Assembly: GCF_021730615.1 (NCBI RefSeq)
Contig: NZ_JAJLMN010000001.1
Coordinates: 3,545,501-3,609,500, forward strand
DNA: 64,000 nt
Reading direction: 5' to 3'
Origin: Lichenibacterium dinghuense
GTDB lineage: Bacteria; Pseudomonadota; Alphaproteobacteria; Rhizobiales; Beijerinckiaceae
The notes under the pieces are model-generated. The model did no database searches and had not been told where the DNA came from. It was given only the letters and a program-made list of their open reading frames with translations. The translations under genes were made by a program, and so were the position numbers. Positions 34,231 to 39,634 of the stretch are shown in pieces. Position 1 is the stretch's first letter. Every line of letters starts with the position of its first letter.

Positions 34231-35007
34231 ATGAACATGGGGCGGATCGCGATCCTGGCCGTCGTCGTCGCCCTCGCCGCCCCGGCGCGGGCGGGCGACG
34301 TCGTCGCGCCCGCCCCCGGCGGCACGGTCCGGGTCGGCGTGCCGGCCGGCCCCGACCCGGTCGCGGGCTTCGACCGCAGCCTGTTCGCCGAGGTGTCGCG
34401 CGAGGCGGGGCTCGGCGCGGTCTTCGAGGTGATGCCGCCCGAGGCGGCGCCGGCCGCGCTCGACGCGGGGCGGATCGACGTCGCGGCCGGACCCTTCCCG
34501 TTCGACCGGGCCGCGGGGCGCCTCGCGCTCGGGCCCGTCGCGACCGACGGCGACGCGCTGCTGAAGCGGCGGGGCGACGGCAGCCTCGGCCTCCCCGCAC
34601 AGGCGGCCGGCAAGGTCCTCGGCCTCCTCGGGCCGGCGCCGTCCCTGCCGCGGCTCCGGGCCGAGGTCGCGATGCTCCGGGCGCGGGCCGCCGCGCCGCC
34701 GCGGGCCTTCGCCGATCCCTTGCGCGACCTCGCGGCCGGGCGGGTCGCGGCCCTCGTCGGCGAGCTGCCCGACGTCGCCGCGGCCGCGCTGGCGCGGCCC
34801 GACGGCTTCGAGGTGGTGGGGCCTGCCTTCGGCCGCACGCGCCCGACCGTGTCCCTGATCCGGGCAGACCGGCCCGACCTCGCCGCGCGGCTCGACGCGG
34901 CGCTCGCCCGCATGCGGGCGGACGGGCGCCTCGCCGCCGTGCAGCGCCGCTGGTTCGGCCTCGCCGACCCGCCCGCGGCTCAGCCCGTCGCGACCGCGAA
35001 GCCGTAG
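34231..35007 (+). CDS. Periplasmic amino-acid-type solute-binding protein
   Basis: A 258-residue exported protein resembling family 3 extracellular solute-binding proteins. The signal peptide (~22 residues) ends in ARA-GD. The mature chain opens GGTVRVGVPAGPDPVAGFD and contains the LDAGRIDVAAGPFPF hinge motif and the end LAAVQRRWFGLADP, as in these proteins. It has no permease or ATPase gene beside it, so it may be an orphan receptor, or feed another transporter. It diverges from the LOV kinase. Its last 28 bp overlap the end of the rhamnosidase gene on the other strand. Confidence 0.75.
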   Translation: MNMGRIAILAVVVALAAPARAGDVVAPAPGGTVRVGVPAGPDPVAGFDRSLFAEVSREAGLGAVFEVMPPEAAPAALDAGRIDVAAGPFPFDRAAGRLALGPVATDGDALLKRRGDGSLGLPAQAAGKVLGLLGPAPSLPRLRAEVAMLRARAAAPPRAFADPLRDLAAGRVAALVGELPDVAAAALARPDGFEVVGPAFGRTRPTVSLIRADRPDLAARLDAALARMRADGRLAAVQRRWFGLADPPAAQPVATAKP

Positions 35008-37664
35008 CGGCCCGAGCCGAGGTCGAAGCCGGCCGAGCGCCGCCCGCCGTGGACGAGCAGGCGGTCCGGCTCGGCGGGCGCGCCGTCGCGCGTGAGCCGT
35101 GCGCCCTCCGGAAAGGGCAGCACCAGCATGCCGGCGGTGTTGGCCGGCAGCTCGACCTCGTAGGCCGTGGCGGCCGGCCCCTGGCGCCAGGACGAGCGCA
35201 CCCAGCCGCGCGGCGAGCGGTAGGCGGCGCGGCAGCGCTCCACGCCGGGCCCCGGCACCGGGGCGAGCCGCAGCCGCGCGAAGGCAGAGCCGTCGTCGGC
35301 GATGCCGGCCATGTCGGCCATCAGCCATTCGCCGACCGAGCCCAGCGCGTAATGGTTGAAGCTGTTCATGCGCGCGGACTGGAACCCCTTCTCGGCCGTC
35401 CAGCCGTCCCAGCGCTCCCACACGGTCGTGGCGCCCTGGCGGACGGGGTAGAACCAGGACGGGCAACCCTCGTTCAGCAGCAGGCGGTAGGCCAGCTCCG
35501 CGTGGCCGTGGCGCGTCAGCACCGGCAGGATCAGCCGCACGCCGAGGAAGCCCGTCGACAGCCGCGTGCCGCGCCGCTCGATGTTGGACACGAGGTGGCG
35601 CACCGCGGCCGCGACCCTGTCGTCCGGCACCAGCCCGACCGACAGCGCCAGCAGGTAGCCCGTCTGGGTGCCGCCCTCGAGCCGGCCCGCCGGCGTCATG
35701 AAGGTGGCCCCGAAGGCGGCCCTGACCTCGGCGAAGAGCGCGCGGAAGCGCGCCGCGTCCCCGGCCTCGCCGAGCACCTCCGCGGCTTCGGCGGTCAGGG
35801 AGGCGATCAGCGCGTGGTAGGCGGTGGCGACGAGCGGCTTCGGCGCGGTCTCGCCGGCCGACAGCCAGTCGCCGAAGTTCCAGCCGCATCTCTTCGTGCG
35901 GATGCGGTCCGGGTTCTGGCGCGACACGAGGTCGGTCCAGTCCCGCATGGCGGGGTAGCATCGTTCGAGCAGGCGCCGGTCGCCGTAGCGGCGGTAGAGC
36001 GTCATCGGCACGATCACGCCGGCGTCGCCCCAGGCCGGGCCGCCGTCCGGCCCGTGCGGCCCGCGCGGCGCGACGTCCGGGAAGGCGCCCTCGGCCGAGC
36101 GCGCGTCGAGCACGTCGTCGGCCCACTTCGCCATGAAGCCCTGCACGTCCATGAGGTAGGCGGCGGTGGGCAGGAACACGCCGACGTCGGCCATCCAGCC
36201 GAGCCGCTCGTCGCGCTGCGGGCAGTCGGTCGGGATCGAGACGAAATTGCCGCGCTGGCTCCACAGCACGTTGTCGCGCAGGCGGTCGAGCGTCGGGTTC
36301 GACGTTTCCCATTCCGACGTCTCGTCGAGGTCGCTGCCCACCACCTCGCCCACCACCGCTCCGGGCGCGGGCGGCGCGTCGAGGCCGGAGATGCCGACGT
36401 AGCGGAAGCCATGCAGCGTGAAGAGCGGCGCGTGGCTCGCGGCGGCGCCGTCCGACACGTAGCGGTCCTCGGCCGCGGCGCTGCGCAGGTTGGCGCGGTA
36501 GAGCGAGCCGTCCGGGTCGAGCATCTCGGCGTGCTGCAGCGTCACGACCCGCCCCGGCGGCAGGGCCGGCAGGGCGATCCGCACGCGCCCGACCATGTTC
36601 TGGCCGAGGTCGACCACATGCGTGCCGTCCGGCGCGCGGGTGACCGCCACCGGCCGCAGCCGCCGCGTCACCCGCACCGGCGGGGCGCGGCTCGCGCGGC
36701 AGGCGGCCTCCGTGCCCGCGCCGAGGCCGGCCGGCGCCCATCCGGCGTCGTCGAAGCCCGGCGCGTCCCAGCCCGGCACCGCGAGGCGCGCGTCGAAGAG
36801 CTCGCCCTTGAGGAGGTCCGAATAGACCCGCGCGCCGCGGCCGGCGCGCCAGCTCGCGTCGGTCGCGATCGACGCGGCCGTGCCGTCGGCGAAGTCGAGC
36901 GCCAGCCGGGCGCGGAACTGCGGCTCGGTGCCGTAGATGTGGCGCGGCCGGTGCGGGTAGAAGCCGAGGTAGCCGCTGTACCAGCCCTCGCCGAGCAGCG
37001 CGCCGAGCACGTTGGTGCCCTCGCGGACCAGCCCGGTGACGTCGTAGACCTGGTAGTCGAGGCGCTTGGCGTAGTCGGTCCAGCCCGGCGACAGCAGCGC
37101 GTCGCCGGCGGCCTCGCCGTTCAGCCGCGCCTCGTAGACGCCGAGCGCGGTCGCGTAGAGCCGGGCGCGGACGACGGGCCTGTCGACGCGGAAGTTGCGG
37201 CGCAGGTGCGCGACGGCCCGCGCGCGGTGGGGGTTGGCGTAGGGCCTGTCGGCCTCGTCGGGGAAGAAGCGCCGCGGCGCCGGCACGCCTATGATCCAGT
37301 CCGACCCCCAGGGCTCGTCGAGGAGCCCCGTCTCGAACCATCCGGGGGCCGCGAAGGCGGAGGCGCGGCCGGCCTCGTCCCAGGCGCGCAGCGTCCAATG
37401 ATAGCGGGTGCGCGGGCGGAGCGGGGCGCCCGCGTAGACGATGTCGCGCGTGTCGGGCGAGGCGACGCGCCCGCTCGCCCAGCTCAGGCCGTCGGTGCCG
37501 GCCAGGGCCGCGGGGTCTTCGGCGACGCGGATCTCGTAGGCGGTCTGCCGCCGGTCGCGCCCGCCGCCCTCGACGATCCAGCCGAGGCGGGGGGCGGGCT
37601 CGTCGAGGCCGAGCGGGTCATGCAGGTGTTCGCAGGTGAGGAGGACGGGGCGGAGCGGGTCCAG
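34980..37664 (-). CDS. Alpha-L-rhamnosidase (GH78), probable CTG start
   Basis: A glycoside hydrolase of 894 residues if started at the CTG at 37664. N-terminal Fn3-like domain (~10-130, LGWIVEGGGRDRRQTAYEI and RYHWTLRAWDEAG), beta-sandwich (YATALGVYEARLNG), then the (alpha/alpha)6 catalytic domain with DCPQRDERLGWMADV and GDAGVIVPMTLY, where the GH78 acids lie, and a C-terminal sandwich. The Fn3-like segment has no ATG, GTG or TTG in frame ahead of it before a TGA, but AGGAGG lies exactly 6 bp before CTG. The first ordinary start (GTG at 37286) would delete ~126 conserved residues. No signal peptide. Directly downstream of cytochrome b561. Confidence 0.85.
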   Translation of the reverse strand: MDPLRPVLLTCEHLHDPLGLDEPAPRLGWIVEGGGRDRRQTAYEIRVAEDPAALAGTDGLSWASGRVASPDTRDIVYAGAPLRPRTRYHWTLRAWDEAGRASAFAAPGWFETGLLDEPWGSDWIIGVPAPRRFFPDEADRPYANPHRARAVAHLRRNFRVDRPVVRARLYATALGVYEARLNGEAAGDALLSPGWTDYAKRLDYQVYDVTGLVREGTNVLGALLGEGWYSGYLGFYPHRPRHIYGTEPQFRARLALDFADGTAASIATDASWRAGRGARVYSDLLKGELFDARLAVPGWDAPGFDDAGWAPAGLGAGTEAACRASRAPPVRVTRRLRPVAVTRAPDGTHVVDLGQNMVGRVRIALPALPPGRVVTLQHAEMLDPDGSLYRANLRSAAAEDRYVSDGAAASHAPLFTLHGFRYVGISGLDAPPAPGAVVGEVVGSDLDETSEWETSNPTLDRLRDNVLWSQRGNFVSIPTDCPQRDERLGWMADVGVFLPTAAYLMDVQGFMAKWADDVLDARSAEGAFPDVAPRGPHGPDGGPAWGDAGVIVPMTLYRRYGDRRLLERCYPAMRDWTDLVSRQNPDRIRTKRCGWNFGDWLSAGETAPKPLVATAYHALIASLTAEAAEVLGEAGDAARFRALFAEVRAAFGATFMTPAGRLEGGTQTGYLLALSVGLVPDDRVAAAVRHLVSNIERRGTRLSTGFLGVRLILPVLTRHGHAELAYRLLLNEGCPSWFYPVRQGATTVWERWDGWTAEKGFQSARMNSFNHYALGSVGEWLMADMAGIADDGSAFARLRLAPVPGPGVERCRAAYRSPRGWVRSSWRQGPAATAYEVELPANTAGMLVLPFPEGARLTRDGAPAEPDRLLVHGGRRSAGFDLGSGRYGFAVATG

Positions 37665-37670
37665 GCGTGT

Positions 37671-37676
37671 CCTCCT
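37671..37676 (-). promoter_or_regulatory. Consensus Shine-Dalgarno that fixes a CTG start
   Basis: A perfect AGGAGG on the minus strand, 6 bp before the CTG at 37662-37664 and 6 bp after the cytochrome b561 stop. No other start codon in the correct frame lies within reach. Confidence 0.75.
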
Positions 37677-37682
37677 GCGGCT

Positions 37683-38264
37683 TCAACGGAGGCCGGGCAG
37701 CATCCGGGACAGCACGCTATCGCGCTTGATCATTTGATGCCACAGCACCGCGGCGACGTGCAGCCCCACCACGGCGTAGATGGCCCAGGCGCCCCAGTAG
37801 TGGAGCTCCTCGCCGACGCGCGACGACGCCTTGTCGAGCGGGATCAGGCGCGGCCACTGGAAGAGCCAGAAGAACGGCAGCGAATAGCCGCCGGCGGCGG
37901 AGTTCCAGTAGCCGGTGAGCGGCAGGAACAGCATCAGCGCATAGAGGCCGAGGTGGCCGGCCGCCGCGGCGGCGTGGTTGAGCCGGCCCATCCGCTCGGC
38001 GTAGGGCGGCGCCGCCACCGCGAGCCGGTAGCCGATGCGCAGGACGACCAGCACCAGCGCGGTCATGCCGAGCGACTTGTGCCACTCCAGGAGGAAGCGC
38101 CGCGTGGCCTGTCCGGGCGGCTGGTAGGCGCAGTAGAGGCCGATCAGCATGGCGGCGACGATGACCGCGGCCATGCTCCAGTGGAACGCGCGCTGGGTCC
38201 GGTCGTAGTGGGTCGGGGCCGCGGCGGGGCGGTCGTCGGCGGCGGAAAGGTCGAGGGTCGTCAT
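37683..38264 (-). CDS. Cytochrome b561 family protein
   Basis: A 193-residue inner-membrane di-haem protein of the bacterial cytochrome b561 family, which passes electrons between quinol and periplasmic acceptors such as superoxide. Four transmembrane helices with paired His: AFHWSMAAVIV, LLEWHKSLGMTAL, LHYWGAWAIYAVVGLHVAAVLWHQ. A cytoplasmic Asp/Ala-rich leader of ~25 residues precedes the first helix. It is followed by the rhamnosidase gene after 18 bp, most likely in one transcript, an unusual pairing. Confidence 0.9.
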   Translation of the reverse strand: MTTLDLSAADDRPAAAPTHYDRTQRAFHWSMAAVIVAAMLIGLYCAYQPPGQATRRFLLEWHKSLGMTALVLVVLRIGYRLAVAAPPYAERMGRLNHAAAAAGHLGLYALMLFLPLTGYWNSAAGGYSLPFFWLFQWPRLIPLDKASSRVGEELHYWGAWAIYAVVGLHVAAVLWHQMIKRDSVLSRMLPGLR

Positions 38265-38406
38265 CGCGGGTCCGCGGGTTCGGCGCGGCCCCGGGCGGGC
38301 CGCCGCCGGGGGCATCCCGGCGCGGGCGGGCGGAATTGCGGCCAATCGTCCGACGAATGATTGCGGGCGCGATTCGGGCGGCGCGTGTGTCTTCCTGATC
38401 GACGTC

Positions 38407-38446
38407 CGTGCCGCTCGTCCCCGCCTGCGCGGGGATGAGCGGCACG
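38407..38446. repeat. REP-like extragenic palindrome
   Basis: An 18-bp imperfect stem (CGTGCCGCTCGTCCCCGC against GCGGGGATGAGCGGCACG, one mismatch) around a CTGC loop, between recF and cytochrome b561. Its core, CCCGCCTGCGCGGGGA, recurs at 60999-61019, so it is a dispersed element, not only a local terminator. Confidence 0.65.
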
Positions 38447-38467
38447 GAGAGGGCGGAAGAGTGCGTC

Positions 38468-39634
38468 TCACCCCGCCGGCCGCACCGCCCCCGGCACGAC
38501 CTCGAAGCGCTCCGCGTCGCGCAGCTCGGCGAAGAGCGCCGGGTCGGCGCCCGTCATGAAGACGTGGCCGCCGAGCGCCTGGAGCTCGGCGTAGAGCGCT
38601 TCCCGCCGCAGGGGATCGAAATGCGCCGCGATCTCGTCGAGCAGCACGAGGGGCGCGATGCCGCTCATCGCCGCGACGAGCCGCGCCGAGGCCAGCACCA
38701 GGCCCACCAGCAGCGCCTTCTGCTCGCCGGTCGAGGAGCGCGCCGCTTCCGCGTCCTTCGGGCCGTGGCGCACCGCGAGGTCGCTGAGGTGCGGGCCGAT
38801 CGAGGTACGGCCGGCCGCGGCGTCTCGCGCGCGGGTCTCGCGCAGCATCGCGCGGTAGCGGTCCTCGGCGTCGAGCGCCGGGTGGTTGGCCACCAGCGCC
38901 TCGACGCCGCCCACCACCGACACGTCGGCCCAAGGGAAGGGCGAGGCGGGGTCGCGGTGCACGGCGATCAGCGCGGCGAGCCGCGTCACCGTCTCGTGGC
39001 GCGCCGCCGCCACGGCCACGCCGAGCGACGCCACCTCGCGCTCGGCGGCCTCGGCCCAGGCGGCGTCGAGCCGGCCCGACTGGCGGCCCTCGTCCAGCAC
39101 GCGGTTGCGGTTGCGCAGCGCGCGCTCCAGCGCGGACACGCGGGTGCCGTGCTCGCTGTCCACCGTCAGCACGATGCGGTCGAGGAAGCGGCGCCGCTCG
39201 GACGACGGCCCGGCGAAGAGCCCGTCCATGGCGGGCGTCAGCCACACCACGCGCAGGTGGTCGGCGAAGCCCTTGGCGGAAGGCACGGCGGCGCGGTCGA
39301 TGCGGCAGCGCCGCGCCGCGGAGGTGACGCCGTCCGGCGGCTCCAGCCCGGTGCCGAGCTGCACGGCCTCGACGGCCTGGCCGGCGTCCTCGACGTGCAC
39401 CGACGCGGCCCAGCCGCCGTTGCCCGCGTCGCGCGCGCATTCGGCCAGCTCGGCGCGGCGGAAGCCCCGGCCGGGCGTGAAGAACGACAGCGCTTCGAGC
39501 AGGTTGGTCTTGCCCGCGCCGTTGTGCCCGGCTAGCACCACCGGGGCGCCGCCGAGCTTGAGGTCGAGCGCCGGGTAGGAGCGGTAGTCGCCGAGCACCA
39601 GCCGCCGGACCCGCGGGCGGCGGTCCGTGGTCAC
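38468..39634 (-). CDS. recF: DNA replication and repair protein RecF
   Basis: A 388-residue SMC-like ATPase that helps load RecA at gaps. N-terminal DYRSYPALDLKL precedes Walker A GHNGAGKTNLLEAL; the signature STGEQKALLVGLVLASA and Walker B PLVLLDEIAAHFD are near the C-terminus, and FMTGAD follows. GTG start at 39634. It is not in the dnaA-dnaN-recF cluster of enteric bacteria; here it follows a TesA-like esterase gene by 13 bp on the same strand and may be co-transcribed. Confidence 0.95.
   Translation of the reverse strand: MTTDRRPRVRRLVLGDYRSYPALDLKLGGAPVVLAGHNGAGKTNLLEALSFFTPGRGFRRAELAECARDAGNGGWAASVHVEDAGQAVEAVQLGTGLEPPDGVTSAARRCRIDRAAVPSAKGFADHLRVVWLTPAMDGLFAGPSSERRRFLDRIVLTVDSEHGTRVSALERALRNRNRVLDEGRQSGRLDAAWAEAAEREVASLGVAVAAARHETVTRLAALIAVHRDPASPFPWADVSVVGGVEALVANHPALDAEDRYRAMLRETRARDAAAGRTSIGPHLSDLAVRHGPKDAEAARSSTGEQKALLVGLVLASARLVAAMSGIAPLVLLDEIAAHFDPLRREALYAELQALGGHVFMTGADPALFAELRDAERFEVVPGAVRPAG

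Follow-up and report, generated by a model that had tools for sequence, protein, structure and literature searches.

The GH78 frame and its junction with cytochrome b561

The window, a stretch of 64,000 nucleotides of the Lichenibacterium dinghuense genome, carries on its minus strand a stop-to-stop frame of 900 aa (34980..37682, closing TGA at 34980) that encodes a predicted GH78 alpha-L-rhamnosidase. The frame opens directly after the TGA of a prokaryotic cytochrome b561 gene (PF01292 match of 115 bits on 37683-38267) and both genes share one frame. From this stop the minus strand reads TGA(37685-37683) AGC CGC AGG AGG ACA CGC CTG(37664-37662) GAC CCG, which places 18 nt, or six codons, between the b561 stop and the CTG. 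The earliest in-frame ATG, GTG or TTG is the GTG at 37286-37284, 126 codons past the CTG, and this is the likely outcome of an automatic gene call. The features of the locus are collected in Table 1.

Table 1. Features of the b561-GH78 locus, in window coordinates
Feature	Position	Strand	Basis
Prokaryotic cytochrome b561 gene, directly upstream of GH78	37683..38264	-	Pfam PF01292, ATG 38264
TGA, b561 stop and upstream in-frame stop of the GH78 frame	37683..37685	-	sequence, frame
Shine-Dalgarno AGGAGG, spacing of six bases to CTG	37671..37676	-	sequence
Proposed start codon CTG	37662..37664	-	sequence, ATG/GTG there in 11/96 homologous loci, codon-model onset 37667
GH78 alpha-L-rhamnosidase CDS, CTG to TGA, 894 aa	34980..37664	-	open frame, five Pfam rhamnosidase domains, solved homologues
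GTCCTCCT, can pair with AGGAGGAC (37676-37669), CTG in loop	37639..37646	-	fold no better than shuffles
Ig-like Rha78A N-terminal domain Ig_Rha78A_N	37317..37640	-	PF25788, 118 bits, ORF residues 15-122
First conventional in-frame start codon, GTG	37284..37286	-	sequence
Glu486, aligned with SaRha78A Glu636	36207..36209	-	alignment to 3W5M, codon GAG
Glu750, aligned with SaRha78A Glu895	35415..35417	-	alignment to 3W5M, codon GAG

The first-pass annotation had described this frame as open from the TGA in the b561 stop region, with no ATG, GTG or TTG before the N-terminal domain and with AGGAGG 6 bp from a CTG, and had estimated that a start at GTG 37286 would drop about 126 residues. The sequence bears out each of these points: six bases separate the AGGAGG at 37676-37671 from the CTG, and the product is 894 aa from the CTG against 768 aa from the GTG. 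Given the 18-nt gap, and given that no sigma-70-like site turned up when 37500-38500 was scanned for promoters, we infer that the b561 and GH78 genes are probably co-transcribed and translationally coupled.

All five Pfam domains of the GH78 frame score above their cut-offs. The catalytic six-hairpin rhamnosidase domain PF17389 reaches 393.5 bits (cut-off 24.5) and is accompanied by PF25788, PF08531, PF05592 and PF17390, in that order, as accessory domains. The Ig_Rha78A_N domain lies wholly upstream of GTG 37286, and a start there would remove it entirely. It had been described earlier as a conserved Fn3-like domain; a conserved domain is indeed found upstream of the GTG, but the Ig-like assignment of PF25788 is the more exact one. 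The solved homologues of the protein are 3W5M, 6I60 and 6GSZ, and we take 3W5M/3W5N to be SaRha78A, the alpha-L-rhamnosidase of Streptomyces avermitilis. The two proteins share the same N-domain from residue 4, position 4 of the query being matched to position 4 of the 3W5M chain. The alignment also covers both catalytic glutamates, pairing Glu486 with what is presumably the general acid of SaRha78A (Glu636) and Glu750 with what is presumably its general base (Glu895). SaRha78A differs in being a 1043-residue chain with an extra stretch between its N-domain and the rest, and it is matched in two separate stretches. All 894 codons of the GH78 gene are intact, and the predicted activity of the product is that of a GH78 alpha-L-rhamnosidase, probably of cytoplasmic type.

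Coding onset and homologous N-termini

By a codon-usage model built from sampled parts of the host genome, GH78 coding sets in at 37667, a single codon ahead of the CTG; the model is rough, and in a 464-kb sample its onset was no more than three codons away from the chosen start in 153 of 315 genes. The 126 codons from CTG to GTG have an in-frame score of +35.7, the other two frames giving -70.8 and -72.1, and the third-position GC of these codons is 0.94. Upstream of the CTG, the six codons that follow the b561 stop are host-avoided or neutral, with AGG, AGG and ACA just 5' of the CTG among the avoided ones. These codons bear on the idea that the GH78 N-terminus arises when ribosomes read through the b561 TGA or shift frame from the overlapping TTG (37686), an idea suggested by the common frame and the 18-nt distance. 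Their composition argues against it, as does the b561 stop, which is found at the same place in the sister species G001, and with a correctly spaced Shine-Dalgarno (SD) sequence neither route is needed. Hence we regard readthrough or frameshifting as extremely improbable.

The N-terminus was next compared across 113 homologous loci (L002-L110 and L143-L146, of which L144 and L145 repeat L003 and L004 from another collection). Ninety-six of them cover the N-terminus, their match starting no later than query residue 14. In 95 of these an ATG, GTG or TTG is present in frame after the upstream stop and no more than five codons downstream of the CTG position; in the exception, L096, a base is masked where the gene probably starts. 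For 18 loci the first such codon falls in the interval from four codons before the CTG position to five after it, and an ATG or GTG stands exactly at the CTG codon in 11/96 (L005, L006, L007, L010, L027, L041, L084, L085, L086, L087 and L146), including an ATG in the same-family enzyme L146. Since L007, L010, L027, L041, L084 and L146 also have earlier start candidates, agreement in position is not enough by itself to fix the start in these loci. In the nearest homologue, L143 (56% identity), an ATG is found about seven codons upstream of the CTG position. An alignment of this kind had been suggested as a check for an ATG at the CTG codon, and the 11 loci provide ATG or GTG there; the outcome named as contrary, a start at the later GTG in every homologue, was not seen, given the earlier option in 95 of the 96. 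Judged by these candidate codons, the homologues would begin at or near the CTG codon.

It could be argued that the GH78 gene starts at GTG 37286 and encodes an enzyme without the Ig domain. Indeed, this is the first conventional in-frame start, and 17 of the 113 loci match without the N-terminus, 15 of them in one clade from the same order. A quick tree of 113 rows including the window protein, with one short row dropped, has several long branches and uneven composition. In it the window protein groups with 98% support among seven same-order rows, including Microvirga, and nests among domain-bearing Hyphomicrobiales enzymes, whereas the domain-less rows of this order, 15 in number, group apart with support 100. 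Furthermore, the 126 codons upstream of the GTG hold a conserved domain of 118 bits and show host-like codon usage, and by eye no SD is seen in the bases before GTG 37286. As the true start this GTG is probably wrong, and an enzyme lacking the Ig domain appears highly unlikely. Because no ATG, GTG or TTG stands ahead of the conserved N-domain, the CTG start is supported.

Shine-Dalgarno context and other candidate CTG starts

Taken by itself, the pattern AGGAGG-N6-CTG does not reach significance in the 64 kb of the window (2 matches against 0.53 expected). In the 464-kb sample of the genome, AGGAGG is found 4-9 nt before 256 of 85,423 interior codons (0.30%) and 4-9 nt before 5 of 315 predicted starts. 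Given this rarity, it is the position of AGGAGG that counts and not the bare pattern.

AGGAGGAC and GTCCTCCT form an 8-bp perfect inverted repeat (window 37639-37676, minus strand), with GTCCTCCT in codons 7-9. The AGGAGG is predicted to be 97% paired, its unpaired probability of 0.03 being at about the 3rd percentile of 315 starts. Such predicted pairing counts against the CTG start, as it would reduce initiation. A hairpin that sequesters the SD as a form of regulation was considered and rejected: the fold has a z of -0.46, 58 of 200 dinucleotide shuffles fold as well, and a perfect stem of at least 8 bp also occurs at 13 of the 315 predicted starts. The predicted hairpin may act as a damper of initiation; no regulatory role is claimed for it.

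Other genes without a conventional start were sought in 120 stretches of the same genome plus the window, together 2.464 Mb or about 40% of the genome, in which 1736 genes were called and 1334 had a score of 60 or more. A gene was counted as having no start when ATG, GTG and TTG were all absent between the upstream stop and the 25th codon after the onset, and as having an SD-CTG when an SD of at least 5 bases preceded, at 5-9 nt, a CTG no more than five codons from the onset. Seven of the 1334 genes have no ATG, GTG or TTG start, and an SD-CTG is found at the onset of three of these seven, the GH78 gene included. In interior control windows the frequency is 154/17,812 (0.86%), and the chance of finding SD-CTG in 3/7 genes is P 2.2e-5; without the GH78 gene that prompted the search it is found in 2/6 (P 1.1e-3).

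The first of the two further candidates, L160:2840 (+) at G000:C1:2802840, presumably a GDSL/SGNH-like hydrolase to judge by its sequence, has no ATG, GTG or TTG near its onset and carries GGAGG at a spacing of 5 before the CTG; in the congener G004 the upstream context is the same and the N-terminus is led by an ATG. The second, L205:163 (+) at G000:C1:550163, which we take from its sequence to be a DUF1800-like protein, shows AGGAGG at a spacing of 5 before a CTG at its onset. Its counterpart in the congener G001 has an ATG five codons further upstream, so that the start of L205:163 would have moved. Over gene onsets as a whole SD-CTG is not enriched (13 against 13.4 expected; 4 against 7.3 in a smaller sample), and it can therefore be at most a rare usage. 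The last, fresh 400 kb of the sample added no SD-CTG candidate.

Several other frames drew attention. The frame of L113:9779 (+), a Kup-like potassium transporter, follows immediately on a TAG and has no ATG, GTG or TTG for 32 codons. It was rejected as a CTG start: no SD precedes its CTG, and in the two nearest congener copies, L195 and L196, a TTG and a GTG stand about nine codons further upstream. A frameshift or a lost start is possible at this locus. L113:18790, L124:4496 and L154:4215, which we guess from sequence to be glycosyltransferase-like, nuclease-like and acyltransferase-like, are well-scored frames with no ATG, GTG or TTG near the onset and no SD-CTG. In the sampled stretches of G000, SD-like sequences also stand in excess before ACG at gene onsets (26 against 9.9 expected), where the ACG codons are perhaps second codons and not starts. 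A pattern search of the sample did not find the initiator tRNA or the 16S 3' end, and no CAT-anticodon tRNA is among the 24 tRNAs listed by ARAGORN in 2.064 Mb; in both cases these may be masked or lie outside the sample.

A single wrong C in the assembly, with ATG, GTG or TTG as the true codon, would account for everything at the GH78 locus. With SD-CTG in three genes of the genome, however, such an error would be needed at the first start-codon base of each, and the assembly is in 5 contigs and 99% complete; we find a base error quite unlikely. The CTG start of GH78 proposed by the first-pass annotation is strengthened by the homologues, by the coding onset and by the two further putative SD-CTG genes. 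More tentatively, and with real doubt, CTG behind a strong SD might form a small but genuine class of starts in this hyphomicrobial genome of high GC, with at least 3 of 1334 well-scored genes (0.2%), about ten times the annotated CTG start rate of 0.024% given in PMC11983097. Such a class might mark gained or variable genes at low expression that gene callers systematically miss.

Probable origin of the gene and proposed initiation at the CTG

A match to the GH78 gene is absent from the other five genomes of the genus, which thus offer no orthologue against which the CTG base could be checked, and is found in 4 of 396 other genomes sampled from the family. In the sister G001 the solute-binding-protein gene and b561 lie tail to tail, 20 bp apart, and in the window the GH78 gene sits between them; its 3' end overlaps that of the convergent solute-binding-protein gene by 28 bp (34980-35007), at the site of the 20-bp gap of G001. 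On the other side, the sequence becomes homologous to G001 again at 37678, two bases beyond the AGGAGG. Since two sister species, G001 and G002, lack the gene at this site, it was probably acquired, and these comparisons suggest a horizontal gain in the L. dinghuense lineage. Gain is the simplest reading of the distribution, as against loss in the other congeners.

An acquired gene could also have lost its start recently, its ATG, GTG or TTG having mutated to CTG, and now be a barely expressed or silent incipient pseudogene. Some homologues do have ATG or GTG at the CTG codon, CTG is a weak initiator, and the absence from five congeners makes the gene dispensable in the genus. Yet the frame is intact over its whole length with both catalytic glutamates aligned, its codon usage fits the host and a near-perfect SD is retained; such a loss therefore seems unlikely.

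In light of these results, we infer that GH78 translation begins at CTG 37664 with a probability of about 0.8, as a real and probably weak start that requires no new mechanism. The near-perfect SD (AGGAGG, spacing 6) would offset the weak codon, and ribosomes ending the b561 cistron 18 nt upstream would probably help initiation by coupling. The fMet-tRNA would read CTG by a first-position mismatch, and the protein would then begin with Met. The CTG would be derived most simply from an ancestral ATG or GTG, as found at the same position in some homologues. The most likely picture is that of a low-level enzyme, made by CTG initiation behind a strong SD with ribosomes arriving from b561.

Published data bear on several of these steps. 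CUG is described as being read by fMet-tRNA with a weak first-position pair, in less stable complexes (PMC11497404), and CTG in E. coli as having about a tenth of the strength of TTG (Hecht et al. as cited in PMC11983097). According to PMC5622118, weak start codons tend to be accompanied by stronger SD sequences; for alphaproteobacteria the same source reports SD-region substitutions that do not differ significantly between start codons, and it counts 2 switches to CUG among 61,358 ancestral AUG starts. As a caution, the mycobacterial analysis in PMC4633059 reports that CTG is not enriched even behind an SD.

Bacterial CTG starts are known but seldom recognised, and the GH78 CTG start is a well-supported new case of this known rarity that fits the idea of a strong SD compensating a weak start codon. 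If true, automatic annotation strips a whole structural domain from the enzyme. The main use of the finding is the annotation correction, together with the lead that the genome may hold several CTG starts; with two more candidates, one organism could serve to test whether CTG is under-counted in high-GC bacteria.

The closest precedent is repA of the FIB replicon of F-like plasmids, which, as described in PMC11983097, has a CTG behind a strong SD (GGAGG), low expression and a common misannotation at a downstream GTG. It differs in being a plasmid replication gene in which the wrong call costs 14 codons against 126 in GH78, and in that its start is backed by N-terminal analysis and a CTG-to-CTC mutation (PMC11983097), whereas the GH78 start is read from sequence. 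E. coli ano and Deinococcus deserti rpsL likewise use CTG as initiator according to PMC5960689, but are other genes, ano being an overlapping ORF.
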